Positions 5,107 to 34,298 of a stretch of DNA of 64,000 nt are shown here, piece after piece. Within the stretch, counting starts at the first letter, position 1. Each line of letters starts with the position of its first letter. This DNA comes from Candidatus Eiseniibacteriota bacterium (GTDB lineage Bacteria > Eisenbacteria > RBG-16-71-46 > CAIMUX01): assembly GCA_903844735.1 (NCBI GenBank), contig CAIMUX010000051.1:1-64000 (forward strand), written 5' to 3'. The position numbers and the translations under genes are program-made. The notes under the pieces are model-generated. The model was not told the DNA's origin. It did not search any database and worked only from the letters and a program-made list of their open reading frames with translations.

Positions 5107-8100
5107 ACATCCCCGAACTCTGTATCCGGCGGCCGGTGATGACGTCCCTGCTGATGGTGGGGATTCTCATTTTCGGCATCGTGGGATACCGGCTGCTGCC
5201 GGTGAGCAACCTGCCCAACGTCGACTTTCCCACCGTCTCGGTCTCCGCGTCTCTTCCCGGAGCCAGCCCGGAAACCATGGCCTCCACCGTCGCCACGCCG
5301 CTCGAAAAGCAGTTCTCGACGATTGCCGGGATCAGCTCGATGTCGTCATCGAGCTCCATGGGCTCGACCAACATCACGCTGCAGTTTGATCTCTCGCGCG
5401 ACATCGACGCGGCGGCCCAGGACGTGCAGGCAGCCCTCGCCGCGGTGCATGACCTCCCGAAGGAGATGCCGTCCCCTCCTTCCTATTCGAAAGTGAACCC
5501 GGCCGATCAGCCGATCCTTTTTATCGCCCTGACCTCGCCGACGCTTCCGCTCAGCGCCCTGGACGAATACGGTGAGACTCTCCTGGCCCAACGGATCTCC
5601 ATGGTCAGTGGAGTCGCCCAGGTCGGTGTCTACGGCGGACAGAAACGCGCCGTGCGCATTCAGCTCGATCCGAGCGCTCTGGCCGCGAAGGGGATCGGGT
5701 TCGACGACGTGACCGCCGCCATCCAGCGGGAGAACGTCAAGCTGCCCACCGGGACGCTCTACGGGCCCGACCAGACGTTCACCATCGAAGCGGCCGGGCA
5801 GCTCGATCGCGCCGAGGCGTTCCGCTCGCTCATCGTGGCCTACCGCAACGGCAAGCCGGTGCAGCTCCAGGATCTGGGCAACGTCCTGGACAGCGTGGAG
5901 AACATCAGGACGGCGGCGTGGTATGGCGACGAACGCTCCATCTTTCTCGTCATTCAGCGGCAACCGGGCACGAACATCGTGGAAGTGGCCGACGCGGTCA
6001 AGGAGCTGCTGCCGACGTTTCGCGCCAAGCTTCCGGCCTCGGTCTCCATGAACGTTCTGTACGATCGGTCCGAGTCGATCCGCGCCTCGGTGAAGGACGT
6101 GAAGTTCACCCTGCTCCTCACCCTTTGCCTGGTGATCCTCATCATCTTCCTCTTCCTGCGCAACCTTTCGGCCACCGTGATTCCGAGCCTGGCCCTGCCG
6201 ATGTCCCTCATCGGCACGTTTGCGATCATGTACATCTGTGGGTACAGCCTGGACAATCTCTCCCTCATGGCCCTGACCTTGTCGGTCGGTTTCGTGGTGG
6301 ACGACGCGATCGTCATGCTCGAAAACATCGTCCGGCACATGGAGAAGGGCGAAGGGGTCATGGAGGCGGCCCTCCGGGGCTCGCGGGAGATCGGCTTTAC
6401 GATCATCTCGATGACGATCTCGCTGGCGGCGGTGTTCATCCCGGTGCTGTTCATGGGTGGGATCATCGGGCGGCTCTTCCAGGAGTTCGCCGTGACGATC
6501 ATGGCGGCCATTCTGATCTCGGGCTTCGTCTCCCTGTCGTTGACCCCGATGCTCTGCAGCCGGTTTCTCCGCCACGGCAAGGCGACCCATGCCGCTCAGG
6601 CCCGGACGAACCGGTTCTACGACGCCACGGAGCGTGGTTTCCTGGCCGCGCAGACGGCCTACGGGCGGGGACTCCACTGGAGCGTGCGGCATCGCCGCGC
6701 CGTGCTCGTCTTCTCGGTCCTGATTCTCGCGGGCACCGTGGTCCTTTTCCGGATCGTGCCCCGGGGATTCCTCCCGAGTGAGGATGTGGGCCAGATCACC
6801 GTCAATACCGAGGCGCGGGAGGGGATCTCCTTCGAGCAGATGGTGCCCCACCAGAAGGCCGTGGCCGATATCGTCGCGCGGGATCCCAACGTCGAGGGGA
6901 CCATGTCACGCGTCGGCGGCGGGGGAAGAGGCGGCTCCAACAGCGGGAGCATCACCGTCAGGTTGAAGCCCCGGAAGGATCGGAAGCTCTCGGCGGATCA
7001 GCTCATCGCGTCGCTGCGGCCGCGCCTGGCCGGTATTCCGGGAGTTCGAGCATTCCTGCAGAATCCGCCTCCGATCAACGTCGGCGGCCGCCAGTCGCGC
7101 AGTCAGTACCAGATCACCATGCAGGGCAACGACACCGAGGAGCTGTACAGGCTCACGCCGATTTTCCTGGAGAAGCTGCGTGCCCTGCCCGGCCTGACCG
7201 ATCTCAGCACTGACCTGATGATCCGCAATCCCAAGGTCGACGTTGCGATTGACCGCGAGCAGGCGACTACCCTCGGGGTCTCCACCGAGCAGATTCAGCG
7301 GACGCTGTTCAATGCGTATGGCTCGCGGCAGATCTCATCGATCTACACGCCGACGAACGAGTACCAGGTTATCCTCGAGATCAAACCGGAGTTCCAGGTC
7401 GACGCCTCCTCCATGGGCGCGCTCTACGTCCGCTCAGCGAGCGGGACGCTGGTGCCCTTGAATGCGGTGGCGACGGTGACGCCCGCTCTCGGACCTCTCA
7501 CAGTGAATCATTCCGGACAGATACCGTCGGTGACGCTCTCCTTTAACCTGAAACCCGGCGTTTCCCTGGGGCAGGTTGTGGAGGAGGTCGACAAACTGGC
7601 GCGCGCCGAGCTGCCTCCCACCATCACCACGAGCTTTCAGGGAACGGCGCAGGCGTTTCAGTCCTCCATGACCGGGCTGGGCATCTTGCTCGTGGTCGCT
7701 GTGCTGGTGATCTACCTCGTCCTGGGGATCCTCTACGAGAGCTTCATTCATCCCTTGACGATTCTGTCCGCGCTGCCATTTGCCGGGTTCGGTGCTCTCG
7801 TGACGCTGCTCGTCTTTGGCGTGGACCTGAACATCTACTCCTTCGTCGGCGTCATCATGCTCGTGGGGCTGGTCAAGAAGAACGGGATCATGATGGTCGA
7901 CTTCGCGCTGGAGGCGCAGCGGACAGAGGGACGGTCGCCCGTGGAGGCGATCGTAGAGGCCTGCCTCATCCGGTTTCGGCCGATCATGATGACCACCATG
8001 GCCGCGCTGATGGGGACGCTGCCGATCGCGGTAGGGTTTGGCGCCGGGTCGGAGTCGCGCCGGCCGCTCGGCCTGGCCGTCGTGGGTGGTTTGCTCTTCT

Positions 8101-8268: not shown

Positions 8269-8292
8269 GTGAGGAGAAGCGGGTCGCCTCAC
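8269..8292. terminator. weak hairpin between convergent genes
   Basis: GTGAGG (8269-8274) pairs with CCTCAC (8287-8292) across a 12-base loop, in the 66-base gap where the RND operon and the leftward gene converge. There is no T-tract. The position suits a bidirectional terminator but the structure is weak. Confidence 0.25.
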
Positions 8293-8309
8293 AGCCCCGT
8301 CACTGCGTC

Positions 8310-10265
8310 TCACGGCCGAACGTCGTCCAGCCGGTACGTGAACACGCGATTGTCCTGGAAGGTCGGAACAACCAGTGTACCCGATTCCGGCGCATAGCCG
8401 AAGTCAGCGCAGCCGACGGCCCTCGTGGTCACGTCCAGGATCTTCTCGGGATCTCCTCCCGCCCGAACCCGGTAGATCCGGCCTTCCACCTGCGACAAGA
8501 GGATCCCGCCGCGTCCGTCCACGACAAGGCCGTCCATCGTGCCCGAAGGGAACGTTGCGACCGTACGCAGGGCCCGGGTTGCGATCTGGATCGAGCGCAC
8601 CCGCGCATCCGCGGTGCAGCCGACCAGGAGCGAATCGCCGGAAGCGCAGATCCCGTTCACCTGCGCGAGCTGCGGGTCGATCAGCCATGCCTCGGACGTG
8701 CCACCGGTCACCCGATGGATCGTGGCCGCCCCCGAGTCGGTGACGTACGCCGTGCCGGCGCCATCCACGGCGATGTCGTTGAGGAATCGGCCAGCCGGGA
8801 TCGGCACCCGCCGGGCCACGCGCCCGGATGTCAAGTCGACGACGGCCACGCCGGTGCGCTCGACGACATACAGCGAGTCGCCGCGCACCGCCAGGCCGGT
8901 CGGGTTCGCCATCCCGCCGATCCAGCGAGGGTCGCGTACGCGTCCATCCGGGTCCACGCGCGCGAGGAACGGCCCCCCCTCCGCCACGCTCTCGTCACCC
9001 GGGTCGAAGTTTGATACGTAGAAGACCCTTCGCACAGGGTCCCAGGCGGCCGACTCGGGGGACTGGAACCCGCGGGAAGACTCGGCCACGGTGTGCAGCC
9101 TTGCCGCCTGCAGGGTGGCAGACCCGTCCTGGCAGATCAGGCCCCAGCCGCCGAACGACTCCGCCACGCAGGCGGCCAACTCGTTCTCCCCTTTCCGCAG
9201 CGGAAGGGAGACCTCGTCGAAGAGCCCCATGATGCCGAGGAACGAGGGGTCGCGCTGGCGGTAGGCGCTGCGCCCCGCGAACAGGAGCCGGCCGTTCAGG
9301 AAGAGGCTCACCGCATCGCTATAGCCAAACAGGAGCGGCCGTGCCTCGTCCGTCTCGGAGCGGATCGTGGTGCGGGCGAAGAGCAGATCGGGCGTGGACT
9401 GCTCCCCCTGCGGCCGCGCCACCCAGCGACAGAAGTCGATCCGCCCGTTCGGTTCGGCCTCGATCGGCGTCCAGGAGATGGCGCCAATGGTCTGCTCTGT
9501 GTAGGGCTTGTGGCGGTCGATGCGGCCGAGCTTGAAGGCGGGGGAGACCTCCCAGTCACGGATCATGCCCGGCGGGATATCGACCGGCCGCGGCGGGCTG
9601 AAGGCCAGCGACGAATCGCGGTAGCAACGGAAATTCGAGAAGTACGAGGAGCCGTCGGCCGCGCACAGGAGGCCGATTTTCCCGGCGGACGGATCGCGCA
9701 CGAGGTGGTCCATGGTCAGCGCTGGCTTCGGTGCGTTACCGACGAAGAGGCGGGCCTGGGAGCCCGCGAACTCCAGGCGCAGGCGGATCCACTCTCCCGG
9801 CGGCAGAGGCACCCCGGCGGTGTAACCCTCTCCGAAATACAGCTGCCAGCCGGTGACACCCCGGAAACTAGGAGCGTAGTGGATCGCATCCGGATAGCGG
9901 CCGGCCCGGTGGGGCCGAAGGTAGACGCGCTCGTGGTCGTCATCCGACTGCATCCGAAAGAGGATGCCCGGGTAGCCGGGCGCGCCGGTGACCGCCAAGT
10001 CGACCTCGATGACGCCGTCCTGGAAGAGGGTGTCTCGCAGCACGGCGGCGCCGGCCAGGCTGGCGCGACCCAGATGCTCTGTCACTGTCGCTCGAGAGAG
10101 TTCCCAGCGATCGGCGGTGAAGTCAAGTGTGGCGCGGGGAATGGTGTCGGACGCGGCGCAGACGGGGCCGACTGTGAAGACCGAACCGAGCAGGAGAACG
10201 GAACGGATCGGGCGAATGGCGCGGGCCCCAAGGGCGCGAAACGCGCGCAGGCTTCGAAACGGCAA
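8310..10265 (-). CDS. secreted LamG/DUF1080-like plus NHL/SMP-30 beta-propeller protein
   Basis: A 651-residue exported protein. The TTG start is supported by GGGAGGAGG five bases upstream, and a signal peptide ends near V-C-A-A-S. Residues about 45-215 resemble the concanavalin-like 3-keto-disaccharide hydrolase (DUF1080) fold: G-V-I-E-V-D, P-G-I-L-F-R, G-E-W-I-R-L-R-L and Y-F-S-N-F-R. A middle beta-sandwich (about 230-385) has S-L-F-L-N-G-R. The last 260 residues carry repeated blades (G-D-S-L-Y-V-V-E-R, N-D-I-A-V-D-G-A-G-T-A-Y-V-T-D) like SMP-30/NHL propellers. Such propellers bind or hydrolyse small ligands or act as scaffolds. The combination suggests carbohydrate or lactone recognition outside the cell; no catalytic residues could be confirmed. 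It stands alone between convergent and same-strand genes. Confidence 0.7.
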   Translation of the reverse strand: MPFRSLRAFRALGARAIRPIRSVLLLGSVFTVGPVCAASDTIPRATLDFTADRWELSRATVTEHLGRASLAGAAVLRDTLFQDGVIEVDLAVTGAPGYPGILFRMQSDDDHERVYLRPHRAGRYPDAIHYAPSFRGVTGWQLYFGEGYTAGVPLPPGEWIRLRLEFAGSQARLFVGNAPKPALTMDHLVRDPSAGKIGLLCAADGSSYFSNFRCYRDSSLAFSPPRPVDIPPGMIRDWEVSPAFKLGRIDRHKPYTEQTIGAISWTPIEAEPNGRIDFCRWVARPQGEQSTPDLLFARTTIRSETDEARPLLFGYSDAVSLFLNGRLLFAGRSAYRQRDPSFLGIMGLFDEVSLPLRKGENELAACVAESFGGWGLICQDGSATLQAARLHTVAESSRGFQSPESAAWDPVRRVFYVSNFDPGDESVAEGGPFLARVDPDGRVRDPRWIGGMANPTGLAVRGDSLYVVERTGVAVVDLTSGRVARRVPIPAGRFLNDIAVDGAGTAYVTDSGAATIHRVTGGTSEAWLIDPQLAQVNGICASGDSLLVGCTADARVRSIQIATRALRTVATFPSGTMDGLVVDGRGGILLSQVEGRIYRVRAGGDPEKILDVTTRAVGCADFGYAPESGTLVVPTFQDNRVFTYRLDDVRP

Positions 10266-14931: not shown

Positions 14932-15075
14932 ATGGACTTGCGACGGATAGGGGGGGCGGGTCGCGGCACGGTGGCCGGTGGGTCAGGGCGTCTGCGGCCA
15001 ATCGGCCGGGACTTCCCGCGGGGCGTCGCGTCGGTGCTGCGCGGCGCGGTGCCCCGGGCTGGGGCGCTCCGATGA
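14932..15075 (+). CDS. possible leader ORF upstream of acyl-CoA synthetase
   Basis: A 47-codon frame starts at an ATG only eight bases after TATACT (14918-14923) and ends with a TGA that overlaps the next ATG (ATGA). The peptide is G- and R-rich with no domain. The short distance from a -10-like box suggests a leaderless mRNA whose translation would feed the synthetase gene. No -35 box or ribosome binding site is visible, so this may be chance. Confidence 0.22.
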   Translation: MDLRRIGGAGRGTVAGGSGRLRPIGRDFPRGVASVLRGAVPRAGALR

Positions 15076-16883
15076 TCCCGCGCAGCGTCGTGGCCGTGGC
15101 CCGAGCACGGGCCGGCCTGGAGGAAGCGGAGGGGATCCCTCCCGTCGATCCGACTCGTCCCTCCATGGAGCCGGCGGGCGGACCGCGCCCCTTGTCCTAT
15201 CGTGACTGGTACGAGCCGGTGGAACTGCTGGCCGCCTGTCTGCGTGCCCGCGGCGTGCATGCCGGGGATCGGGTTCTCGTCTTCGCCGAGACGCGGATCG
15301 AGTGGTGCCAAGCCGACCTCGCGGTCATGGCCGCGGGGGGGATTACTGTCCCTGTCTTTCCGACGCTACCAGCCGCTCAGGTGCAGGAGATTCTCTCCGA
15401 CTCGGGAGCCGTCGCCGCCTTTGTCGCCAACACCGCGCTTCTGACCGAGTTGATGCGCGCGCCGGCCGCGGCCGGGTTGCGACTCGTGGTGCTCATCACC
15501 GCATCCGTCGAGCGTACCACCGCCGCGCCGCCGATTCTCTCCTGGGAGCAGGCGCTTGCCGCCGGACGTTCCGCGCCGCCCGATTCCATCTCCAGGCTGA
15601 CCGCCATCGCGCGAGGTCTTGGTCCCGACGACCCGGCGACGCTCATCTACACGTCGGGCACCTTGGGCAAGATGAAAGGAGTGCTGCTGACGCACGGGAA
15701 CCTCCTCGCCTCCGCGGTTTCCTCGGCGCGCCGCATCAACGTTACGGTCGATGACGTCTACCTCTCCTTCCTGCCGATGGCGCACGTTCTGGAGCGAGTG
15801 GTGCATCTCTCCATGCTTTGGGCCGGGGCGGGGATCCATTACGGTGGCGGGCTCGATCGACTCGAAGAGGATTTCCGTCGGGTTCGCCCGACGGTCGTCG
15901 TGGGCGTACCGCGCCTCTTCGAGAAGATCATGCGCGGCGCGGTCGATCGGGCGGGGCGGCTCGGGCCGCGCGGTCGTTTCGTCTTCAAGCTGGCGGAGCG
16001 GGCCGCCCGGCGCAGTGGGCGCGGAGGGCCGCGACGGCGTCCCCGGGGACCGGTCGCCTGGCTGTGGGAGGTCATCGTCTACCGGCAGGTGCGCCGGGCG
16101 GTGGGAGGCCGGGCCCGCATCCTGGTCAGCGGGGGCGCCCCCCTGGGTGCGCGCGAACAGTCGTTTCTCAACGGCTGCGGCTTGTCTGTGCTTGAGGGGT
16201 ACGGTCTGACGGAGACCGCCTCGGTCTGCTCCTTGAACACCCTTTCCGAATGGCGGCGGGGCTCGGTCGGGCGCCCGTTGCCGGGGGTCGAACTGCGCGT
16301 GTCGGAGGAGGGCGAGATCCTCGTGCGTGGCCCTTCCGTCATGCGCGAATACTGGAACGACGAGGAGACTACCCGGGAGGCGCTGCGCGACGGCTGGCTC
16401 TACACCGGCGACCTGGGAAGAGTCGACGACGACGGTTTCCTTTTTCTCACGGGCCGGAAGAAAGACCTGATCATCACCGCTCAGGGTAAGAACGTGGCGC
16501 CGCTGCTCGTCGAGACGCAACTGCGCCGCAGCCCGCTCGTGCACGACGCGCTGGTGGTCGGAGATCGCCGTCCCTTCCCGGTTGCGCTGGTCTACCCGGA
16601 TCTCGACATGCTCCGCGCCCGGCTCGGCCTCTCGCTCACCGAAGGACCGGGGTTGCGCAAGAGCCTGGAGGCGCAAAGCGTGCGGGCGATCTATCGCGCC
16701 GAGATCGACCGGGTCTGTTCGGCGCTGGCGCCGCACGAAACGGTGCGCGATTTCGTTCTTCTGGCGGAGCCGCCCAGCATTGCGGAGGGCAGCCTGACGC
16801 CGACTTTCAAGCTGCGCCGGAGCGAGATCGAACGGCGCTACGCCGTGGAGATCCGTCGGATGTACGACCGCGCCGGGAGGTAG
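15072..16883 (+). CDS. long-chain acyl-CoA synthetase (AMP-forming)
   Basis: A 603-residue ANL-superfamily ligase, FadD15-like, which activates fatty acids with ATP and CoA. Motifs in order: the P-loop-like A3 motif Y-T-S-G-T-L-G-K-M-K-G-V (about 196-207), L-P-M-A-H-V-L-E-R, G-G-A-P-L, E-G-Y-G-L-T-E-T, Y-T-G-D-L-G and G-R-K-K-D-L-I-I-T-A-Q-G-K-N-V. The C-terminal E-R-R-Y region is complete. The A3 motif normally reads S-G-T-T-G-x-P-K-G, so here T is L and P is M. A basic R-G-G-P-R-R-R-P-R-G loop sits near residue 320. The gene diverges from the glycosyltransferase pair. It is probably membrane-associated on the cytosolic side. Confidence 0.92.
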   Translation: MIPRSVVAVARARAGLEEAEGIPPVDPTRPSMEPAGGPRPLSYRDWYEPVELLAACLRARGVHAGDRVLVFAETRIEWCQADLAVMAAGGITVPVFPTLPAAQVQEILSDSGAVAAFVANTALLTELMRAPAAAGLRLVVLITASVERTTAAPPILSWEQALAAGRSAPPDSISRLTAIARGLGPDDPATLIYTSGTLGKMKGVLLTHGNLLASAVSSARRINVTVDDVYLSFLPMAHVLERVVHLSMLWAGAGIHYGGGLDRLEEDFRRVRPTVVVGVPRLFEKIMRGAVDRAGRLGPRGRFVFKLAERAARRSGRGGPRRRPRGPVAWLWEVIVYRQVRRAVGGRARILVSGGAPLGAREQSFLNGCGLSVLEGYGLTETASVCSLNTLSEWRRGSVGRPLPGVELRVSEEGEILVRGPSVMREYWNDEETTREALRDGWLYTGDLGRVDDDGFLFLTGRKKDLIITAQGKNVAPLLVETQLRRSPLVHDALVVGDRRPFPVALVYPDLDMLRARLGLSLTEGPGLRKSLEAQSVRAIYRAEIDRVCSALAPHETVRDFVLLAEPPSIAEGSLTPTFKLRRSEIERRYAVEIRRMYDRAGR

Positions 16884-16969: not shown

Positions 16970-19159
16970 CTATCCGACAACCCGTATCCAGATAGAAACG
17001 GTGCGCACCGCGTGGCGGTCGGCTGTTTTCTGCCCCGGCTTCAAGTCGGACATCTCCGCCGGGATCCAGATCCAGTCGAACCGCAGCGAGGGTTCGAGGG
17101 CGGGTACCGCGGTGCAGCGCAGGTGCAGGGAGACCCCGGAACGCGTCTCGTCGGGACGATTCTCGCCGGAGCGCATCGACGTGGGATGGTCGGCCCGCGC
17201 TCGCACAAGATGAAGGTCCACGGGCCAGTCGTCGCGCGCCCGCGCAGAGATGGAGATGCTTGTTACCGTCTCTCGCTCGCGGCCTGCCCCGGGGTTTTCG
17301 CGGCGTGCCGGATCGTCCTCGGCCTCGCGCACCGCGCGGTGGAACAACTCCAGGGCCAGGCGATCCGTGCCGCTCGCCGGCCGGCCGCTCGCCACGCCGT
17401 GGCCCGGTCCGCCGGGGCTTGCCACGCCTTCCCGGCCGGTCCGTGCTAACGCCAGCGCGCAGCGCCAGCCCTCTCGGTTTGCGCCGTAGGTGAGGGCGTT
17501 GTAGAACGGCTCGAACCCCGGCTCCGTCCGAACAAGGTGAAACAGCCCGTGCACGCGCCACGAACCCGCGATCTGCTCTACCCGCGTTCCCGCGCGGAAT
17601 CCGCGGGCATCGGTTCGCTCTTGCCGGGGGCGTCCGTAGGGCGGCTCAAGCCACACCCGATCGAGTCGCCACCACACAGCCTCCGCCTCCAGCGCAGCCC
17701 CGCGCCACGGACCCGCCGAGGCCCACGCCGACACCGCCCCTTCATCGCGCTCGTCGGCCGGGCGGGGGTGGCTGTCGAGATCGATGCTGCGGCGATCGTC
17801 ATCCAGCACGAGGGCCGAGAGCCGCAGCCCCAGTGGTCTTGATAGCCCCGTTCCCCCGTCAACCGATCCGGCGTGTCCGAGGTCGAGCACGGCGGTGCCG
17901 AGCTCCTTTCGATAGCGCGAAGGCGCCTGGTTCGCTGGTTGAGCGAACTCCTTGAGGGCCGCCGGCAAGGTCGTGGCGACATCCACCTGCTCGCGTCGCG
18001 TCACGGCTCCCGCGATGCGCAGCCGTGCGAAACGTGTGGTGCCCCCGGCCTCGAGCCCCTCGAACGTGTACGGGGGAGCGAGCACCTCGAGGCTGCGTGC
18101 CGTGACGCCGGTGACGCCGCTGCCGCAGACGCTGCAGCCGGTGGCGCCGCCGAGCGGAGGTGCGTCATCCCTGTCCCAGCGCTGGAGCAGGAGCGGAGAG
18201 ATGCGCAAAGGGAAGGCGCCAATCGTGCTGTGCCACCGGCCCCGCTGCAGGTTCACGCTGAGCGTCCCATGGCGATCGGAGAACTGCTCGGCCCCTTCCA
18301 TCGCCGCGGCCTTGTCCTCGTTGCTCCACCGCAGCCAGGGGACGACCTCGATCCCGTGCGCCGGGTTCCAACGAAGTCTGGCATCGACGCGATGCAGCCA
18401 GCTTGCCCCGGCTTCCAGTGGTTCGCCGAGGAGGCCGCGATCGTCCGGCCGCGAACCATCTGTCACCGCGCAGCGCGTCCGGGCGTCCAGTTCCATCGTC
18501 TCCAGAAGCGAAACCGTTGCGGCCATGACGCGGGCCGTCGGCTGGGTGGACTTGCCGGTCACGACGCCGGTCCTCGGCGTGGTTGCGGGGGGAGCGCCGG
18601 ACGTTGTGCCGGCTCCGTAGAATGAACTGCGGCCCGGGGCACTCTCTGCCGGCAGTTGCCGTGCCGCCGGCATCAGCGTGGGGACGAGCCCCTCCATCCG
18701 GTCGTCGAAAGCCGCCTGCACCGTGCCGTGGGAATCGACGAGAAACGAAGCGAGGTGGGTCGTGCCGAGCCCGTAGGCTCGCGCCACGGCGCCGGCATCC
18801 CAGAGGTGGGGCAGTTGGATCCCCCGCTCGTCGAGGAGGTACGAAAGCGCCGCCGGGTCGTCAGGGCCGAAGAGGATCGCCGTCACCGCGACTCCCAGCG
18901 GTCGAAGCGAGTCGGCCAGCGCGTCGCATGCCATGGCGATCTCAGTGCAGCGTGGGCAGCCCCGGTTCCAGAAGACGAGAGCTGTCAGTGGCGCACGGCC
19001 GAAGATCTCTTCCGAAGAGGGCGCCTGTTCTCCCGTCAGCCAGGGCAGGTGAAACGACGGGGCGATGTCTCCCGGGGAGAGCGCCGCAGCGGGCGCGGCC
19101 CAGGCAAGGACGAAGAGGATCGAAAGCAGGTACCGTTTCCCGTAGGCGCATGGTTGCAT
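16970..19159 (-). CDS. secreted TlpA-like thioredoxin fused to a putative outer-membrane beta-barrel
   Basis: A 729-residue exported protein. GGAGG seven bases before the ATG at 19159 sets the start. A signal peptide runs to about residue 26 (A-A-P-A-A-A-L-S). Residues 27-170 form a TlpA/AhpC-like thioredoxin with P-G-D-I-A-P-S-F, the active site W-N-R-G-C-P-R-C (Cys68, Cys71) and T-T-H-L-A-S-F-L-V-D. A low-complexity linker (about 175-230) leads to 480 residues of alternating hydrophobic/polar strands with W, Y and R at turns (V-E-V-V-P-W-L-R-W-S, F-H-L-V-R-T-E). The chain ends in an amphipathic strand T-V-S-I-W-I-R-V-V-G. That pattern suggests an outer-membrane beta-barrel; it is my inference, with no family recognised. 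A C-S-V-C-G-S pair lies in the barrel part. If right, a redox domain would be tethered in the periplasm to its own pore. Confidence 0.65.
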   Translation of the reverse strand: MQPCAYGKRYLLSILFVLAWAAPAAALSPGDIAPSFHLPWLTGEQAPSSEEIFGRAPLTALVFWNRGCPRCTEIAMACDALADSLRPLGVAVTAILFGPDDPAALSYLLDERGIQLPHLWDAGAVARAYGLGTTHLASFLVDSHGTVQAAFDDRMEGLVPTLMPAARQLPAESAPGRSSFYGAGTTSGAPPATTPRTGVVTGKSTQPTARVMAATVSLLETMELDARTRCAVTDGSRPDDRGLLGEPLEAGASWLHRVDARLRWNPAHGIEVVPWLRWSNEDKAAAMEGAEQFSDRHGTLSVNLQRGRWHSTIGAFPLRISPLLLQRWDRDDAPPLGGATGCSVCGSGVTGVTARSLEVLAPPYTFEGLEAGGTTRFARLRIAGAVTRREQVDVATTLPAALKEFAQPANQAPSRYRKELGTAVLDLGHAGSVDGGTGLSRPLGLRLSALVLDDDRRSIDLDSHPRPADERDEGAVSAWASAGPWRGAALEAEAVWWRLDRVWLEPPYGRPRQERTDARGFRAGTRVEQIAGSWRVHGLFHLVRTEPGFEPFYNALTYGANREGWRCALALARTGREGVASPGGPGHGVASGRPASGTDRLALELFHRAVREAEDDPARRENPGAGRERETVTSISISARARDDWPVDLHLVRARADHPTSMRSGENRPDETRSGVSLHLRCTAVPALEPSLRFDWIWIPAEMSDLKPGQKTADRHAVRTVSIWIRVVG

Positions 19160-19400
19160 GGCGAAGCCTCCATAGAACGGATAGCACGGGGGAGGGTGAG
19201 GCTCAATGCGGATCCGCCGGGCACAAGGTGGCCGACTGGGACTCACTTAGGATCTGGCGGGCGCGAAGAGGGCGACCGGGGGCTACCGATCTCCACTTGA
19301 GCGAGCGCCCCGCGGTGCGGCGGATCTCGGCAAGTCGCAGCGCACGCCTCTTGCCCCATCGCGAGACGGGCGGTACGCTGTCGGGCGGAGGTGCTTCGCT

Positions 19401-20055: not shown

Positions 20056-22632
20056 TCAACGCACCAGCACCAGACGTGCCACGGCACTGGCGCCGTTTGC
20101 CTCCGCGCGCGCCCAGTAGACGCCTCCGGGGAGCGCCCGCCCGCTCTCGTCCCGCCCGTCCCACCGAAACGAGGTCACCCCCGATTCCGCGGACGTCGTG
20201 CCGAGGCTGCGCACGCGGCGGCCGGTGGCGTCGAAGACCGCGACTCTGGTTGCCGCGGAAAGTTCGCGGCGCAGTCGGATCTCCACCGACGACCGGAACG
20301 GGTTCGGCTGGGTGGCCAGGACGAGTGGCCGCCCTTCCGGAGGGATCGCCGGCGCGGTGCGACGCAGCCGGAATCGGCCGCCTATGGCGTCGTTCTCGAC
20401 GCGGAAGCGTGTCCCGACGAGATGGGCCAAGTCCTCGTTCTGTGCATCCATGGCTAGGCGGAAGCCGCGCAGCCCGCCGATCCCGGCGGCGGGAATCGAC
20501 GCGGGTCGCAGTTCGGGTATGGAATCGGAGGCCACGCCTCCGGAGGAGGCTGCGGCGAAAAAGGGGAGCACGGTGTCGCCGGGACGCGCGTCTTCGTATT
20601 CCCAATCGAGGCTACCAGAGGCTCCGTCCCATGCCGTGCGCAATCTCACCACTTCCGTGCCTTCCCGCGTCCATGACAGGCGCATTTGGGCATTCGCCCC
20701 TTCTACCGTGAGGCGGACGGAGAGTCGAAAATCGTTGGTCGGTTCGGCGGGCTCCACGGCACCCGGCGCCGCGTCGACACCGCAGGGGATAGCGGTGGGC
20801 GACCCGGAAGGAAATGGAGCCGCCGCGCTGACGATGCCGGGACCGGCGAAAACGATCCGTCCGTCGCCCCAGACCTGGACTTCCCGCACAGCGTGTCCGA
20901 GGAACTGGCCCGGAGCGAGCAACGCGATCCGCCGGTTTTCCCCGGGCGCCAGGTCGAAGACGAGCTCGCGGGGAATGAGTCCGCGGTCGGCGACCGCGCT
21001 TTGCACGTCCGCCAGCCGGTCCCCGAGGCCGATCCTACCGGCGGCGCGCAGGAGGCCCCGGGCCGCATCGGTCCACGACGTCGCTGTTCCCTGCTCCAGC
21101 AGCGCCGCCAGCGCCAGCCGCTCAGCATCGACGCGCCCGAGCCGTCCGCGCAGATCCCAGAGCAGCCCGCTCCAAATGGCGCCGTCGTGGTGCGGCTGGC
21201 CGTTCAACCACGTAGGCCATGTCGCCGGCTCGTCGGCGCGCCGCAGGCACGGCGGTGAGTAGGACGTGGCGTCCCAATCACCGATGCACGGCTCGCCGGT
21301 GAGCGAAGCGGCCCAGAAGTCGGCGAACCCCTCCCCGATGGCTCGGGTGTCGCCGTCGCCGAAGCCCGGGACCAGCGCGTCGTGCAGAGCGTGGGCGGTT
21401 TCGTGAAGGATGATGTCCGCATCCTCGGCGTCGTCTACGCCGCCGTCGCCCAGAACAACCTCGCGGGTGGGCCGGCTGTACCACGAGTTGTCGGCTTCTG
21501 TGGCGTGCAGGCGCATCCGCAGCGGGTGCGGGAAGAGTCCGGTGAACCCCAATGAATCCGCGCGGGCCAGGGAGCGATCACCGAACACATAGGCCATCGC
21601 CTCCTCGAAACGCGGATCGCGCGAAGAGTAGGCAAAGAAGAACTCCTGTTCGCGCGCGTCGGGCAGTCGGTCGGTAAGTGTCTCTACCAGGGATCCGCGC
21701 AGATAGCCGCTGCCGTCGAGCCGCGGCACGGTGACGAGCCTCCGGTATTTGTCGACCTCCATGCCGTCGCGCAGGTCGCTTTGCCCGCTCGTCACAACCG
21801 GGTTCGGATCAAAGATGAGGGCGGTGCCGTTCAGGCCGCCCTGAAAGCGCATGTCCTGCGCGGAAAGGAGGGAGAGCGTCACCGGATCCAGGGTGAGACG
21901 GAGATCGATCGGCCCAGCGTCGGCGACCGGCGCCCCGTTCCACGGCAAACCGAGAAGTGCGCGGGACAGCGACCGTTGCGGGCCCGTCATGGTCGCCTCT
22001 ATGCCGAGGACGAACGGCGGCTCGACGCCATCTCGCAACTCCACAAAGGAGACCGGGCCGGGCGATTCCGCGAAGCGGACCGAGAGCGATTCCGCACCGG
22101 CGGTGAAAAGATTGCTCTTCGTGGCCGCTGAGAGTCTGGGCACGGCCACCCGCAGCACGGCGCCGAGATTTCGCCAGTCGACTGCGGCCGGGTCCCGCTC
22201 GAGGACCGCCCCGCTCGGGCCGGTCCCGTCGAGCAGACCCGCCGGCACCGGAATACCCCGATCTTCGTCCGGTCGCCCGCCCGTGTCTTTACCGCTCGCC
22301 CTGGGCAACTGCACCATGCAGTCGGCCCCGCGCACCTCCATCCCTTGGACGAACGGACGCAGCCTCGCCACCTCGCCCCAGGGCGTGCCGAGCCTCGACA
22401 CGAGCCGCCATTCGGGACCGTCGCAGAGCGCTGGAAGGGCGGTTCGGGCGGCATCGGCCAGGTCCCCCGTGACCTCGGGGGAGAGGCGCAATGCGGCCTG
22501 CCGTCCGACGATGCCGATCCCGGCTAGCGTGAGGATGCCGCCGACAAGCCCCAGGAGTACACCCAGCCAGATCGTGCGCAGGGCGAGGATTGAGGGGGGC
22601 AGGGTGGGACGATGTCGGCGAGCTCTCGGCAC
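20056..22632 (-). CDS. zinc metallopeptidase-like protein with FlgD-like C-terminal module
   Basis: About 858 residues. A basic N-terminus and one hydrophobic segment (W-L-G-V-L-L-G-L-V-G-G-I-L) act as signal anchor or signal peptide. The catalytic centre is H-E-T-A-H (His410, Glu411, His414), followed by G-E-G-F-A-D-F-W whose Glu is the likely third zinc ligand. This arrangement matches gluzincins such as M36 fungalysins. Beta-rich domains follow, then a C-terminal FlgD-type Ig module: T-Q-P-N-P-F, V-A-V-F-D-A-T-G-R-R-V, W-D-G-R-D-E-S-G-R-A-L-P-G-G-V-Y, R-L-V-L-V-R. In FCB-group bacteria such modules mark secreted, often surface-attached proteins. The GTG at 22632 has GGAG five bases upstream; a GTG five codons earlier is the alternative. 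It is convergent with the broken CBM6 gene, ten bases away. Confidence 0.75.
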   Translation of the reverse strand: MPRARRHRPTLPPSILALRTIWLGVLLGLVGGILTLAGIGIVGRQAALRLSPEVTGDLADAARTALPALCDGPEWRLVSRLGTPWGEVARLRPFVQGMEVRGADCMVQLPRASGKDTGGRPDEDRGIPVPAGLLDGTGPSGAVLERDPAAVDWRNLGAVLRVAVPRLSAATKSNLFTAGAESLSVRFAESPGPVSFVELRDGVEPPFVLGIEATMTGPQRSLSRALLGLPWNGAPVADAGPIDLRLTLDPVTLSLLSAQDMRFQGGLNGTALIFDPNPVVTSGQSDLRDGMEVDKYRRLVTVPRLDGSGYLRGSLVETLTDRLPDAREQEFFFAYSSRDPRFEEAMAYVFGDRSLARADSLGFTGLFPHPLRMRLHATEADNSWYSRPTREVVLGDGGVDDAEDADIILHETAHALHDALVPGFGDGDTRAIGEGFADFWAASLTGEPCIGDWDATSYSPPCLRRADEPATWPTWLNGQPHHDGAIWSGLLWDLRGRLGRVDAERLALAALLEQGTATSWTDAARGLLRAAGRIGLGDRLADVQSAVADRGLIPRELVFDLAPGENRRIALLAPGQFLGHAVREVQVWGDGRIVFAGPGIVSAAAPFPSGSPTAIPCGVDAAPGAVEPAEPTNDFRLSVRLTVEGANAQMRLSWTREGTEVVRLRTAWDGASGSLDWEYEDARPGDTVLPFFAAASSGGVASDSIPELRPASIPAAGIGGLRGFRLAMDAQNEDLAHLVGTRFRVENDAIGGRFRLRRTAPAIPPEGRPLVLATQPNPFRSSVEIRLRRELSAATRVAVFDATGRRVRSLGTTSAESGVTSFRWDGRDESGRALPGGVYWARAEANGASAVARLVLVR

Positions 22633-23127
22633 AGCGGCTCCGGGCACCCCGCGGTGCCTTCACGGTGCCCCCGCTATCCTGCGAAAGCCGCCGGTGGTGA
22701 CATAGGCGTGTCCGAGGCGCAGACAGTGACATCCAGGCCGCCGCGCGGGACAATGTATTCACTCCTGCTTCAGTATACCGGAAAGGGGCATGATCCGACC
22801 TGCTTTCCGCACATGGAGCCCGCGATTGTCATGTGCAGCATCCGATCGGTCTCTCTCAGGGGTCGGCGCTGCCTCGAACAGGTCCCGCGGGTCGCCGGAA
22901 CCGTCCCGGGGCCTTTCTGCCGATCTGATCGCTCGCCGACGGTTTTCCTCTTCCGGCCGGCCGAATCGCGGAGTAGACTATGCGCTCGAACAAGCGCCGC
23001 CGATTCGGGAACCGAGGCCCGGGATGGCGGCATTTCGGGCGGTACGCGCGTCCGCTCCCGGGCCTGGTGGGGGGCGAGAACGTCGGCGGCGCGGGGAGCG
23101 GCGTCGCACACCAGTGGAGGACGGGCC
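22633..23127. other. divergent intergenic region, about 495 bp
   Basis: This lies between the leftward metallopeptidase and the rightward housekeeping operon. All frames here are arginine-rich and lack plausible starts, and no RNA fold or terminator stands out. The promoter of the nine-gene operon should be here. TAGACT occurs at about 22974, without a recognisable -35. GGAGG at 23116-23120 belongs to the next gene. Confidence 0.45.
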
Positions 23128-28390: not shown

Positions 28391-29571
28391 CTTTCCCCGG
28401 CTCTGGAGCCGCGATCGGGCCAGTTCCTGGTGGCACGCCGCCATCCGACCCTCCTCGCTCCGCCGCCCGCAGATGGCTGATCTCGGTAGCCGGGATGCTT
28501 GTCGTGCCGGCGCTGGCGGCGGCCGCCATCCTGCTGGCCTGGCGCCTGGAACTGGACCGTCCGGTTGGATCCCCGCGGCCCGCGACGGTGGCGGTCTCCT
28601 CGCCGGGCGATCTCGGCGCGCGGTTGGTCCCTTGCCTCAACGAGGAGTCCGGCCTCTTCCTCCGCGTGCCGCGCGGCGCCTCGCTGCGGGCCGTCACAAC
28701 GCGGCTCCAGTCTCTCGGTTGGATCGAGCGTTCCTGGGGGATGCGGCTGGAGGCGCGGCGCCGGGGTCTGGACCGGCGTGTGGTGCCGGGGTGGTATCGC
28801 CACCGTCCGGGCGAGCGCGTGCGCGATCTTCTGGCCCGCCTCACCAGCGGCGAGTTTGAACAGGTGTGGTTCACGATTCCCGAGGGATGGCGCTGTTCGC
28901 GCACCCTGTCGGTCTTGTCCGACTCCGCGTGGATCCCGATCGAGGGGCTCGCAGAGGCGGCCCGGGATGAACGGTGGTTGGCGGACCAATCAGTCCCGGG
29001 GCCGGGGATCGAGGGGTACATTTTCCCCGACACGTACCGACTGCCACGGGGGGAGGAGCCGCGGGTGCTCCTCCGTCAACTCATCCAACCGGGACTCGCG
29101 TTCTGGGAGGATTCCCTGCGCACGGCTGCGGAACGGCTCGGGCTGGACCGCCGCGCCGTCTGGACCCTGGCCTCCATCGTGGAGGCGGAGGCGGCCTCGC
29201 CGGCCGAGCGACGCCGGATTTCCGCTGTCTTCTTGAACCGGCTGCGGCGAGGCATGCGACTGCAATCCGATCCCACGGTGCTCTACGCGCTGGGCCGCCC
29301 TCCAGGGCGTGTTCTCTATGTCGATCTCGAGGTCGACTCGCCGTACAACACCTATCGCCGCGTCGGCCTGCCGCCCGGACCGATCTGCTCACCCGGACGC
29401 GCCAGTCTGCGCGCCGCCGTTGATCCTGAGCCCGACTGCGCCGCCCTGTTCTTCGTGGCGTGTGGGGACGGGACTCATGTATTCTCGCGGACACTGGCCG
29501 AACATGATCGTGCTCGCGGTGTACTGCGGGCGCGGATCGCGAATACCCGGCCGCGGAGGACCCATCCATGA
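28387..29571 (+). CDS. mltG: endolytic murein transglycosylase MltG
   Basis: A 394-residue inner-membrane lytic transglycosylase that cuts nascent glycan strands and terminates peptidoglycan elongation. One N-terminal membrane helix (L-I-S-V-A-G-M-L-V-V-P-A-L-A-A-A) is followed by a LysM-like subdomain and the YceG catalytic domain. The catalytic Glu lies in A-S-I-V-E-A-E-A. Conserved R-L-R-R-G-M-R-L-Q-S-D-P-T-V-L-Y-A and S-P-Y-N-T-Y follow. The GTG start overlaps the ruvX stop. The TGA overlaps the ATG of a secreted protein of unknown function, which ends the housekeeping operon in an unexpected way. Confidence 0.95.
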   Translation: MTFPGSGAAIGPVPGGTPPSDPPRSAARRWLISVAGMLVVPALAAAAILLAWRLELDRPVGSPRPATVAVSSPGDLGARLVPCLNEESGLFLRVPRGASLRAVTTRLQSLGWIERSWGMRLEARRRGLDRRVVPGWYRHRPGERVRDLLARLTSGEFEQVWFTIPEGWRCSRTLSVLSDSAWIPIEGLAEAARDERWLADQSVPGPGIEGYIFPDTYRLPRGEEPRVLLRQLIQPGLAFWEDSLRTAAERLGLDRRAVWTLASIVEAEAASPAERRRISAVFLNRLRRGMRLQSDPTVLYALGRPPGRVLYVDLEVDSPYNTYRRVGLPPGPICSPGRASLRAAVDPEPDCAALFFVACGDGTHVFSRTLAEHDRARGVLRARIANTRPRRTHP

Positions 29572-30521
29572 TCGACTTTGCCCGAACCGTCCCGGGCGCC
29601 CGCCCGGTCCTGCATCCGCGCCGGGGTTTGCTCCGTGGCTTTTCCTGCCTGGCCATGGTCGCCGCGACCGGACTCGCGTCGGTCTCGGTAGGGTGGGCCG
29701 CGGTGCCGAGCAATGCCGGAGGCGTTCTCGTGCTTCATGTCGAGAGCGAGGTCCCTTACGAGTACGGCACCTTCGATCACTGCGACGACCTCGTTCTATC
29801 CGATTCGACCCAAGTCGTGACGCGTCTCCCCGGCGACGGTATTCCTCGCCTGGTGGGCGTGTACGCGGTGTTCCCGCCTGACAGCGTCGGAGCGATCAAG
29901 GCCATCTCCTTTGGGATCCGTTACTCGGAGGGTGTGCGGATTGTGGGGCAGGCCGCCTGCAATGCCGGCAGCATATTCATCGCCATGAACAAGTGGCCCG
30001 CCTCCAACGGCGGGATGTCCGTTCACTTCCCCGTGGAAGCGGAAAGGAGAGCCCGGGTCATTCCTCTCTATTGGTTTGCCCTTCTTAGCAAGGGTGAGGG
30101 GAGCTTCGAGCTGGTTCCAAGTCCGCTGGCGAAGCTGGCCGGCCGTTTCGTGACCGTCGAAGTGCCGTCTCGCCAGGAAGCGATCGCCGGGTACGGGCGG
30201 ATCGGCTTCGATTCTGACGGCTTCGTGCCCACTCCGGGCGCCCGCGCGGTCCTGGCCGCGTGTTGCGTGGATCAGTGCTGGCTGCTGACCAAGCAGGAAT
30301 GCGAACAGTACCGCGGCTACTTTCTGGGGATTGGCATGACGTGTGTCAACAGCCCTTGCCGTGAGGACGCCTATCTCGGCGGCTGCTGCCTGCCTGAGGG
30401 GTGCGAGATGTTGACTCTGGTGGACTGTGCCCGTGGCGGGGGGACCCCGTTGGGTGAGGGTGTCCGCTGTGACTCCTTGCCCTGTCCGAAGCCGATGGGA
30501 GCAGGGGCGCCACCGAAGTGA
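29568..30521 (+). CDS. secreted protein, paralogue 1, with two CC-type cysteine repeats
   Basis: A 317-residue exported protein of unknown function. GGAGG eight bases before the ATG and a signal peptide ending G-W-A-A-V support the start; it overlaps mltG by four bases. The core has N-A-G-G-V-L-V-L-H, G-V-Y-A-V-F-P-P, I-S-F-G-I-R-Y and E-A-I-A-G-Y-G-R-I-G-F, all shared with the genes at 32139 and 33495. The C-terminus carries two cysteine repeats of the form C-C-x3-C-x2-L-T-x3-C-x(10-15)-C-x4-C, about 37 residues each, likely small disulphide-linked knots. It ends K-P-M-G-A-G-A-P-P-K and lacks the S-W-G-x-I-K tail of its paralogues. It is probably extracellular or surface-attached. Confidence 0.82.
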   Translation: MIDFARTVPGARPVLHPRRGLLRGFSCLAMVAATGLASVSVGWAAVPSNAGGVLVLHVESEVPYEYGTFDHCDDLVLSDSTQVVTRLPGDGIPRLVGVYAVFPPDSVGAIKAISFGIRYSEGVRIVGQAACNAGSIFIAMNKWPASNGGMSVHFPVEAERRARVIPLYWFALLSKGEGSFELVPSPLAKLAGRFVTVEVPSRQEAIAGYGRIGFDSDGFVPTPGARAVLAACCVDQCWLLTKQECEQYRGYFLGIGMTCVNSPCREDAYLGGCCLPEGCEMLTLVDCARGGGTPLGEGVRCDSLPCPKPMGAGAPPK

Positions 30522-31931: not shown

Positions 31932-32138
31932 TCCGGAACCGGATTCGGGAACGCTTGAATAGTTGGGGCGAATGTTTCGGTTAGGATCAAATCTCCGTGC
32001 GGGGGAAAGCCCCTGAGGACTGATGGGTGGTATGGGTGGATGGGGGAACGGCTCTTCACGGGGTGGGTCTGTTCCCAGGCGAGACGAGGGTAGAGTACCG
32101 GTAGCTTGGCGGAGAGTCCAAGCAAGGAGGTCGAGATC

Positions 32139-33068
32139 ATGAAGAAGTTTCTAATGGCTCTGGTGGTTCTGGCCATCGCGAGCGGTCCTGCCTTGGCGGG
32201 GCCAAACGAGAATGGCGTGCTCATGGTTCACAACACTGGAGTCATGTACTCCACCGACCCGTTCCCGACTGTGCTGCCCACCTGCCCGGAGATCGTCAAC
32301 ACGGTCGCCATGGGCTCGGAAGGGGGCCTTACGCCGTCGCAGTCCGTGCCGGTGGTCTGGAAGGTCTACGCTGTGTTCCCGCCCGCCAACAGCCCGATTC
32401 TGAAGGCGTTGGGTTGGGGCTACAACCTTTCCGCCGTCAACGCCGGTGGGATTATCATTGAGCAGAACGGGGCAGCGCCGGGTGTGTTCAGTATCGTCAG
32501 CGCCGGTTGGGCGCCTGCCACCACGGGGATCCCCGAGGTGGGGATGAGCTTCACCGATAGCTGCCGGGTCGCTCACGTCACCGAGCTCTGGTGGTTCAGT
32601 GGTTATGCCTACGCGGGCGCCCTTGGTGAGCCCCAGATGTTCAGCCTCCAAGGGCACACCAATCCGCTGAACCAGATCTTCAGCGATTGCGTGATCCCGG
32701 CCAATAAGGACGCGATCGCGGGCTACGGCTCCCTGGGCTTTGGCCAGCCTGGTTACACGTTCTGCCCGACCGGCGAGGTTGTCGGCCCGTGCTGCTTCAC
32801 GGATGGCACCTGCCAGATGCTGACCGCGGTCGCTTGCCAGGGTCTTTCCGGTTCCTTCGTTGGCGGCGAGGCCTGCACGCCGCAGCTTTGCCCGGTCATC
32901 AAGTACGGTGCCTGCTGCAAGGATATGATCTGCCAAGTCGTGACCTCCAACGTGTGCTTCAATATCGGCGGCACGTACTCCGGCGACGACACGACCTGCG
33001 ATCCCTATCCCTGCGCGGTTCCGGTTGAGGTCAAGAGCTGGGGCCAGATCAAGAGCAGCTATCGCTAG
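32139..33068 (+). CDS. secreted protein, paralogue 2, with cysteine repeats and S-W-G-Q-I-K tail
   Basis: A 309-residue exported protein. AAGGAGG and a signal peptide (K-K-F-L-M-A-L-V-V-L-A-I-A, cut after A-L-A) set the ATG at 32139. The core domain of about 200 residues shares with the neighbours N-x-x-G-V-L-M-V-H, K-V-Y-A-V-F-P-P-A-N-S, E-L-W-W-F-S-G-Y-A-Y-A-G-A and V-I-P-A-N-K-D-A-I-A-G-Y-G-S-L-G-F-G. Two cysteine repeats follow (G-P-C-C-F-T-D-G-T-C-Q-M-L-T and G-A-C-C-K-D-M-I-C-Q-V-V-T), each ending C-x4-C. The chain ends V-E-V-K-S-W-G-Q-I-K-S-S-Y-R. No enzyme signature is seen. A strong terminator lies 50 bases downstream, so the gene is transcribed alone or ends a unit. Confidence 0.85.
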   Translation: MKKFLMALVVLAIASGPALAGPNENGVLMVHNTGVMYSTDPFPTVLPTCPEIVNTVAMGSEGGLTPSQSVPVVWKVYAVFPPANSPILKALGWGYNLSAVNAGGIIIEQNGAAPGVFSIVSAGWAPATTGIPEVGMSFTDSCRVAHVTELWWFSGYAYAGALGEPQMFSLQGHTNPLNQIFSDCVIPANKDAIAGYGSLGFGQPGYTFCPTGEVVGPCCFTDGTCQMLTAVACQGLSGSFVGGEACTPQLCPVIKYGACCKDMICQVVTSNVCFNIGGTYSGDDTTCDPYPCAVPVEVKSWGQIKSSYR

Positions 33069-33494: not shown

Positions 33495-34298
33495 ATGGCC
33501 TTAGTCAATCGGTTCACTCTGGCAGCCCTGATCTTGGTTCTCGTCGCCCCCATCGCCCTGGCCGGGCCGAATGCGGGTGGGGTGCTTGTGCTTCACGATC
33601 CCGGTCTGGCATACACGTCGGACCCTCTTGTCGGACTGTCCGGGGTGGGCTGTGGGCAGGACGGTCCGGCCTTTCCGGCTCTCCAGGAGTGCGTGGACAC
33701 CGGCTATGACCCGATCGGGGGAGCGATCCCTTGCGTCCCGGGGGCTGCCGATCCGACCTCCCACATCTCCTGGACCCTCCCGGACGACAAGGGACAGTTG
33801 CACGTCTGGTACGTCATGGCGGCATTTCCGGCCAATAGCTGCCCGCGCCTCAAGACCGTGGGGTTTAGAATCAGGTACGATGCGAGCAAGGTCTATGTGG
33901 ACGCTTCCAAGTCCAAGGATGCCTATGATGTTGCTGAGGTCTCTCTAGTGCAGAAGGTTCCGAGTGACCAGGACGGCACCACGGAGTTTCCCGGCCCCGA
34001 TACCGGCGTGGCCATGGGCTTCAGGGAAGCTAGGACGAGCCAGCTACAGGAACTCTGGTGGTTTGTCGGATACTCCTACCCTGGCGCAGTGGACGCTACC
34101 TTTGGCGTGGCCGTGTTGTCAGGGCTGCCAGGGGATAACAGTATGTTCGGCGATGATGTCATCCCGGTCAACAAGGAGCCCATCGCTGGTTTTGGGAGGC
34201 TAGGGCTTGGTGGAGCCGTCGGAGAAAACCCGACGCCGGTCGTGAGCCCGGTGGAAAAGACGTCCTGGAGCCGGATCAAGGCCACCTACGCGAGGTAG
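33495..34298 (+). CDS. secreted protein, paralogue 3, with S-W-S-R-I-K tail
   Basis: A 267-residue exported protein. AGGAGG six bases upstream and the signal peptide (L-A-A-L-I-L-V-L-V-A-P-I-A-L-A-G) set the ATG at 33495. Core motifs match paralogues 1 and 2: N-A-G-G-V-L-V-L-H-D-P, A-A-F-P-A-N-S-C, V-G-F-R-I-R-Y, E-L-W-W-F-V-G-Y-S-Y-P-G-A and V-I-P-V-N-K-E-P-I-A-G-F-G-R-L-G. It has a longer insert between the first two motifs with paired cysteines and lacks the cysteine repeats. It ends V-E-K-T-S-W-S-R-I-K-A-T-Y-A-R, so the tail motif is attached directly to the core. Function is unknown. Confidence 0.84.
   Translation: MALVNRFTLAALILVLVAPIALAGPNAGGVLVLHDPGLAYTSDPLVGLSGVGCGQDGPAFPALQECVDTGYDPIGGAIPCVPGAADPTSHISWTLPDDKGQLHVWYVMAAFPANSCPRLKTVGFRIRYDASKVYVDASKSKDAYDVAEVSLVQKVPSDQDGTTEFPGPDTGVAMGFREARTSQLQELWWFVGYSYPGAVDATFGVAVLSGLPGDNSMFGDDVIPVNKEPIAGFGRLGLGGAVGENPTPVVSPVEKTSWSRIKATYAR

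Follow-up and report, generated by a model that had tools for sequence, protein, structure and literature searches.

Cytoplasmic reducing power reaches periplasmic proteins, and exported reductases of the TlpA/ResA/CcmG type (AhpC-TSA/Redoxin), which combine a thioredoxin fold with a CxxC active site, are served by DsbD or CcdA. In E. coli, periplasmic thiol enzymes (DsbC) act on the outer-membrane barrel protein LptD, although, unlike the proteins described here, this system involves long-range structural disulfides and a separate, unfused isomerase. AlgE, Campylobacter MOMP and the OprD/Occ porins are 18-stranded, single-chain pores, and L3 is the constriction loop of classical porins. Barrel loops are usually the variable part of these proteins, and the C-terminal aromatic residue of outer-membrane barrels is recognised by BAM. 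To our knowledge, no outer-membrane channel is known in which a covalently attached reductase is combined with a conserved dithiol in the channel itself. In Neisseria PilB (MsrAB), a Trx-like N-terminal domain has been reported at the outer membrane and is reduced in vitro by nDsbD (PMC6210582), and thus the statement in an earlier sequence-only reading of this DNA that TlpA domains are free or tethered to the inner membrane holds as the normal case, with at least one reported exception. PilB resembles the present family in having a Trx-like domain at the outer membrane (here by prediction), but its anchor is a weak amphipathic one instead of a barrel, and the chain includes methionine sulfoxide reductase domains. 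In Geobacter, ExtI/ExtH, a porin-like protein encoded with a rhodanese, are implicated in selenite and tellurite reduction (PMC5877670). They can be likened by description to the present family as a porin-like protein paired with a sulfur-chemistry protein, whereas ExtI has a single cysteine, no fusion is involved and multihaem cytochromes are encoded nearby.

The window, i.e., the whole stretch of 64,000 nucleotides of Candidatus Eiseniibacteriota DNA that was analysed, encodes a member of an undescribed family of TlpA–barrel proteins; papers describing such a fusion were searched for in the open-access literature and none was found.

The window gene and its predicted fold

Positions 16970–19159 of the window, on the minus strand as are all features of the protein given below, contain a complete gene for a TlpA domain plus a predicted beta-barrel, as judged from its open reading frame of 729 amino acids with no internal stops, its coding score (174.9) and its relatives. 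The 3' boundary at 16970 includes the stop codon, and a GGAGG ribosome-binding site (19167–19171) is located 7 bases ahead of the ATG. Read by eye, the N-terminus has the KR, hydrophobic run and AAPAAA of an export start, giving a signal peptide of residues 1–26 (KRYLLSILFVLAWAAPAAA; 19082–19159). It is followed by a TlpA/ResA-like domain (residues 27–169; 18653–19081) that matches PF00578 (AhpC-TSA) over residues 29–149 with E 2.6e-11 and carries, as the sequence-only reading had stated, an intact C68-P-R-C71 active site (18947–18958). A flexible linker (residues 171–206; 18542–18649; pLDDT <50 over nearly all of it) leads to the predicted barrel of about 20 strands (residues 222–728; 16976–18496). 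The gene is present in one copy in its genome and is solitary: it is convergent with an AMP-binding enzyme gene (15072–16883), the next gene on the same strand (20056–22647) lies about 900 bases away, and no thiol-redox genes were seen adjoining it, gene calls outside the TlpA–barrel family being those of a simple hexamer caller.

The residues after the TlpA domain of the window protein have no Pfam or NCBIfam match, the barrel could not be assigned to any named family when all members were compared with both collections, and no PDB sequence was matched by a profile of the family barrel. AlphaFold2 (AF2) applied to the mature window chain with 20 relatives (pLDDT 73.7, pTM 0.70) returned a TlpA fold, the low-confidence linker and about 20 long antiparallel strands continuing to the last residues. 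In the model of a barrel-only Stahlbacteria relative (pLDDT 78.8, pTM 0.78), 20 strands were also obtained, and turns of 2–5 residues alternate with mostly longer loops. Foldseek searches of the PDB with the barrel part of both proteins placed the outer-membrane barrels AlgE, MOMP and Occ/OprD on top (about 10% identity, TM about 0.5), and the front part retrieved ResA and DsbE (ResA TMt about 0.8). Testing alternation strand by strand gave a weak signal (p <0.1 in 5 of 20 strands, combined p 0.002) and, thus, the barrel fold claim rests on AF2 and Foldseek. On these models, the C-terminal part is predicted to be an outer-membrane beta-barrel, neither globular nor propeller, and the fusion proposed in the sequence-only reading finds support in many independent genomes and in the predicted structures; the placement of thiol chemistry at the outer membrane, which had also been proposed, would follow from the predicted fusion. 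Both termini of the barrel lie on the short-turn side, so the TlpA domain would be in the periplasm by the standard reading.

A closing C-terminal strand, another element of the sequence-only reading, is present in the AF2 model (residues 716–728; 16976–17014). It ends in ...IWIRVVG and lacks the terminal Phe of most relatives, the last residue being Phe or Trp in most relatives and Gly or Lys in the clade of the window protein.

The number of 20 strands is likewise a prediction, drawn from two models with shallow alignments and best templates of 18 strands. According to Franklin and colleagues in 2018, structures had been solved for all even strand numbers between 8 and 26 except 20, and a survey of more than 50,000 predicted barrels found no 20-stranded ones in bacteria (PMC6340704). 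Membership in the 18-stranded AlgE/MOMP/OprD group was considered and rejected on the basis of the 20 modelled strands and the lack of a Pfam or PDB sequence match; unlike those porins, the family also has a Cys pair in L3 and a TlpA partner. The MtrB/PioB porins were rejected as well, since only one member matched them (E 0.052) and no multihaem (repeated CxxCH) genes were present in the loci scanned.

Family distribution and gene arrangements

The same fusion occurs in 10 other genomes of the class, and these full-length relatives keep the layout at 21–45% identity, which excludes a chance origin; a partial second copy in genome G021, located beside a run of N, was left out of the count. A search for related loci with the single window protein gave no match, whereas an alignment query succeeded. 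The gene is patchy within the class, with no match in the two other genomes of the window's own family. Beyond the class, a scan of one genome per species (84,980 species) for one exact conserved motif, which sets a lower bound, yielded 19 loci, a few of them from already-known genomes. Altogether, the family is present in Eisenbacteria, Krumholzibacteriota, Latescibacterota, UBP1, a Chitinivibrionia bin, a Gemmatimonadota bin, Poribacteria and WOR-3/Stahlbacteria. Weak barrel matches in genomes G075 and G358 (E 3e-7 and 8e-9) were not accepted as members. The proteins at L105 (2009–4309) and L106 (6368–8848), with weak barrel-profile matches (E 8e-9 and 3e-7), both end in IREA(S/N)PFF and probably represent another barrel family.

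Barrel and TlpA are encoded by separate genes in Poribacteria (L080), Gemmatimonadota bin29 (L083) and six further genomes (L088, the same as L114, L104 and L115–L118), and in 8/8 of these split genomes the TlpA gene immediately precedes the barrel gene on the same strand. The split TlpAs score 99–137 bits against a model of the fused Eisenbacteria domain, compared with at most 55.6 for ordinary TlpAs, and by this sequence comparison they fall into one branch with the fused domains. In the barrel tree, one change suffices for the fused state (67% bootstrap). A DUF1573-type gene follows the barrel in L088 (PF07610) and, by eye, in L116–L118. The order in the Poribacteria locus is TlpA, barrel and a DUF1573–glutaredoxin protein with a CcdA-like membrane part; the latter (L080 3029–5002), directly after the TlpA/barrel pair, is a single protein joining DUF1573, Trx-like, glutaredoxin-like and CcdA-like membrane parts.

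In the two WOR-3/Stahlbacteria loci, the barrel comes directly after a DsbD_TM gene (E 5e-23 and 3e-21), which is itself preceded by an ArsR-like gene (by eye), and no family TlpA was found in the examined locus DNA. An ArsP_1 permease gene lies downstream, together with an SBF/ACR3-like transporter gene in one case. These runs of ArsR-like, CcdA, barrel and ArsP_1 genes occupy L086 1788–7291 and L087 6815–13315, the SBF/ACR3-like gene being found only in L087 and an additional thioredoxin-domain protein in L086.

Other neighbours are shared by smaller sets of loci. In one family of relatives, a secreted protein of 267–281 amino acids is encoded upstream of the fusion (L037 6977–7780, L039 4361–5206 and L040 6421–7260); the L037 protein has no Pfam match. 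Moreover, a thioredoxin gene adjoins the fusion in L036 and L040.

Two cysteine pairs and a lost cis-proline

The CxxC active site is present in 19/19 fused members, whereas the cis-proline of the thioredoxin fold is absent in 27/27 TlpA domains of the family and present in 33 of the 34 readable ordinary TlpAs compared. Its position, in a loop extended by one residue, is occupied by Phe (21 domains), Leu, Ile or Ala and in the window protein by Leu136 (18752–18754). According to the literature, the cis-proline is conserved even more strongly than the CxxC motif, and it has been suggested to keep CxxC from binding metals (PMC2757866). Sequence comparison indicates that the family domain is a divergent TlpA branch, not a standard member, and it differs from TlpA/ResA/CcmG reductases further in being fused to, or encoded with, a barrel. 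It may be adapted to a metal or to a single partner and, without the cis-proline, it may not work as an ordinary reductase. Two other assignments were rejected. Firstly, Sco copper chaperones have CxxxC where the family has CxxC, and the Sco His is not conserved. Secondly, peroxiredoxins, other AhpC-TSA members, have Arg at the cis-proline position (PMC2757866), and this residue is Phe, Leu, Ile or Ala in the family.

A second Cys pair, CxC or CxxC, is found in 29/29 barrels examined, within the motif RWDxxDxP..GG..GCxxC; in the window protein it reads CSVC (residues 342–345; 18125–18136). In both AF2 models it falls within the long loop that connects strand 5 to strand 6 (residues 318–364; 18068–18208); this loop is predicted to be the equivalent, by order, of L3 of classical porins. 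It is the most conserved part of the barrel: it makes up about a tenth of the length and contains 15 of the 37 columns with conservation of ≥90% (p about 3e-7). At the same time, it is the part modelled with the lowest confidence (pLDDT 34–55). No other Cys column in the barrels exceeds 5/28, and the barrels of G006, G011, L080, L084, L088, L116 and L118 have no cysteines beyond the pair, so that no disulfide isomerase would be needed. The L3 Cys pair, the lost cis-proline and the 20 modelled strands are all additions to the sequence-only reading. That reading had suggested action on many cysteine-rich secreted proteins nearby, a suggestion that fared poorly: the window holds only two, 10–13 kb away, and blastp at E 1e-5 matched neither of them to genes called in the surroundings of other family members. 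The likelier target of the TlpA domain is the barrel's own invariant Cys pair.

The two window proteins (29568–30521 and 32106–33068) are secreted, contain 15–16 cysteines and have no Pfam match; they share a GGVLVLH/NGVLMVH start with a third protein (33495–34298) that has few cysteines. Downstream of a Krumholzibacteriota fusion gene, L074 encodes two secreted proteins with 31 (7168–7989) and 40 (8283–9257) cysteines, the first being rich in T-C-D/T-C-x repeats.

A possible redox-wired channel and its alternatives

The reading that we favour, with a probability of about 0.48, is that of an outer-membrane channel with its own thiol reductase, in which electrons would pass from DsbD/CcdA to the TlpA domain and on to the L3 cysteines, setting permeability. 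The TlpA domain would hang in the periplasm on a flexible tether, 15–89 residues long across the family, which would help it to shuttle between the inner membrane and the pore. Inner-membrane thiol transporters of the DsbD/CcdA family would recharge it, a role that for this family is suggested by gene presence and neighbourhood, and we infer that electrons would then flow towards the L3 pair and reduce it. As in classical porins, L3 would probably fold into the pore, where the dithiol or disulfide state of the pair, or a ligand bound to it, could decide what passes. Once reduced, the pair may gate the pore, bind a metal or hand electrons on to the outside. The co-inheritance of TlpA, which is kept as a partner whether fused or separate, its replacement by CcdA in WOR-3 and the invariant barrel dithiol together suggest thiol exchange between TlpA and L3. 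The genome of the window contains a full-length DsbD and a CcdA-type gene. It also encodes two VKOR-type proteins that could make disulfides; the VKOR matches (C104:10711–11067 and C15:17812–18162) lie inside long open frames of about 690 amino acids, which suggests that they are fused to other domains.

Several findings weigh against the channel–reductase reading. The window gene has no thiol-redox neighbour, and the lost cis-proline perhaps means that the domain is no ordinary reductase. The low-confidence L3 model leaves pore placement and TlpA reach as predictions. Moreover, the periplasm has to be bridged if a domain at the outer membrane is to reach DsbD, an objection also raised for PilB (PMC6210582). 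A more specific proposal, namely a new class of 20-stranded barrels whose pore-loop dithiol, switchable or metal-binding, is controlled by a tethered, cis-proline-free TlpA supplied from the cytoplasm via DsbD/CcdA, is offered only tentatively.

CxC is a common soft-metal motif, and the strongest competing explanation, which we regard as rather unlikely, is a channel for soft metals or metalloids. In this view, the TlpA CxxC and the L3 pair would be ligands for a thiophilic ion, for instance Cu, As, Zn or Hg, which the protein would move or sense at the outer membrane, and reduction would only keep them ready. The motif itself, the loss from every family TlpA of the residue proposed to prevent metal binding and the arsenic-type genes around the WOR-3/Stahlbacteria barrels all point in this direction, but such genes occur only at those two loci, the pair has no conserved His or Met alongside it and the copper-binding His of Sco is not retained.

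A less probable alternative gives the barrel mainly the part of an exit pore or anchor, with the TlpA domain working on other proteins located at the outer membrane, e.g., the cysteine-rich secreted ones found in the window and downstream of one Krumholzibacteriota fusion. The distance of the window proteins and their lack of matches at other family loci argue against it, and it leaves the invariant barrel Cys pair unexplained. Even less credence is given to a folding helper whose role would be confined to assembly, when it would correct or reduce cysteines in its barrel in a manner comparable to DsbC on LptD; co-inheritance of TlpA and barrel as a pair would fit, but several barrels have no cysteines besides the pair, and hence nothing to mispair, and the WOR-3 loci pair the barrel with CcdA, no family TlpA being found in the locus DNA examined. 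Finally, it is highly improbable that the fusion arose by chance or through faulty assembly, or that the C-terminal part has a fold other than a barrel, since the absence of a named family for that part is outweighed by the same layout in many genomes from different assemblies and by a barrel predicted twice with outer-membrane barrels as top matches.

Thus, the TlpA–barrel fusion and the invariant Cys pair of the predicted pore loop suggest that, in several little-studied bacterial groups, outer-membrane channels are wired to the thiol chemistry of the cell. The modelled 20-stranded barrel would fill the sole gap in the even strand numbers 8–26 noted in 2018 (PMC6340704), and the loss of the cis-proline probes how much alteration the thioredoxin fold tolerates. 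For experiments, the split gene pair is a simple way in. If the channel–reductase reading is true, the thiol state could be the means by which cells of these groups, most of them uncultured, control metal traffic or the permeability of the outer membrane.
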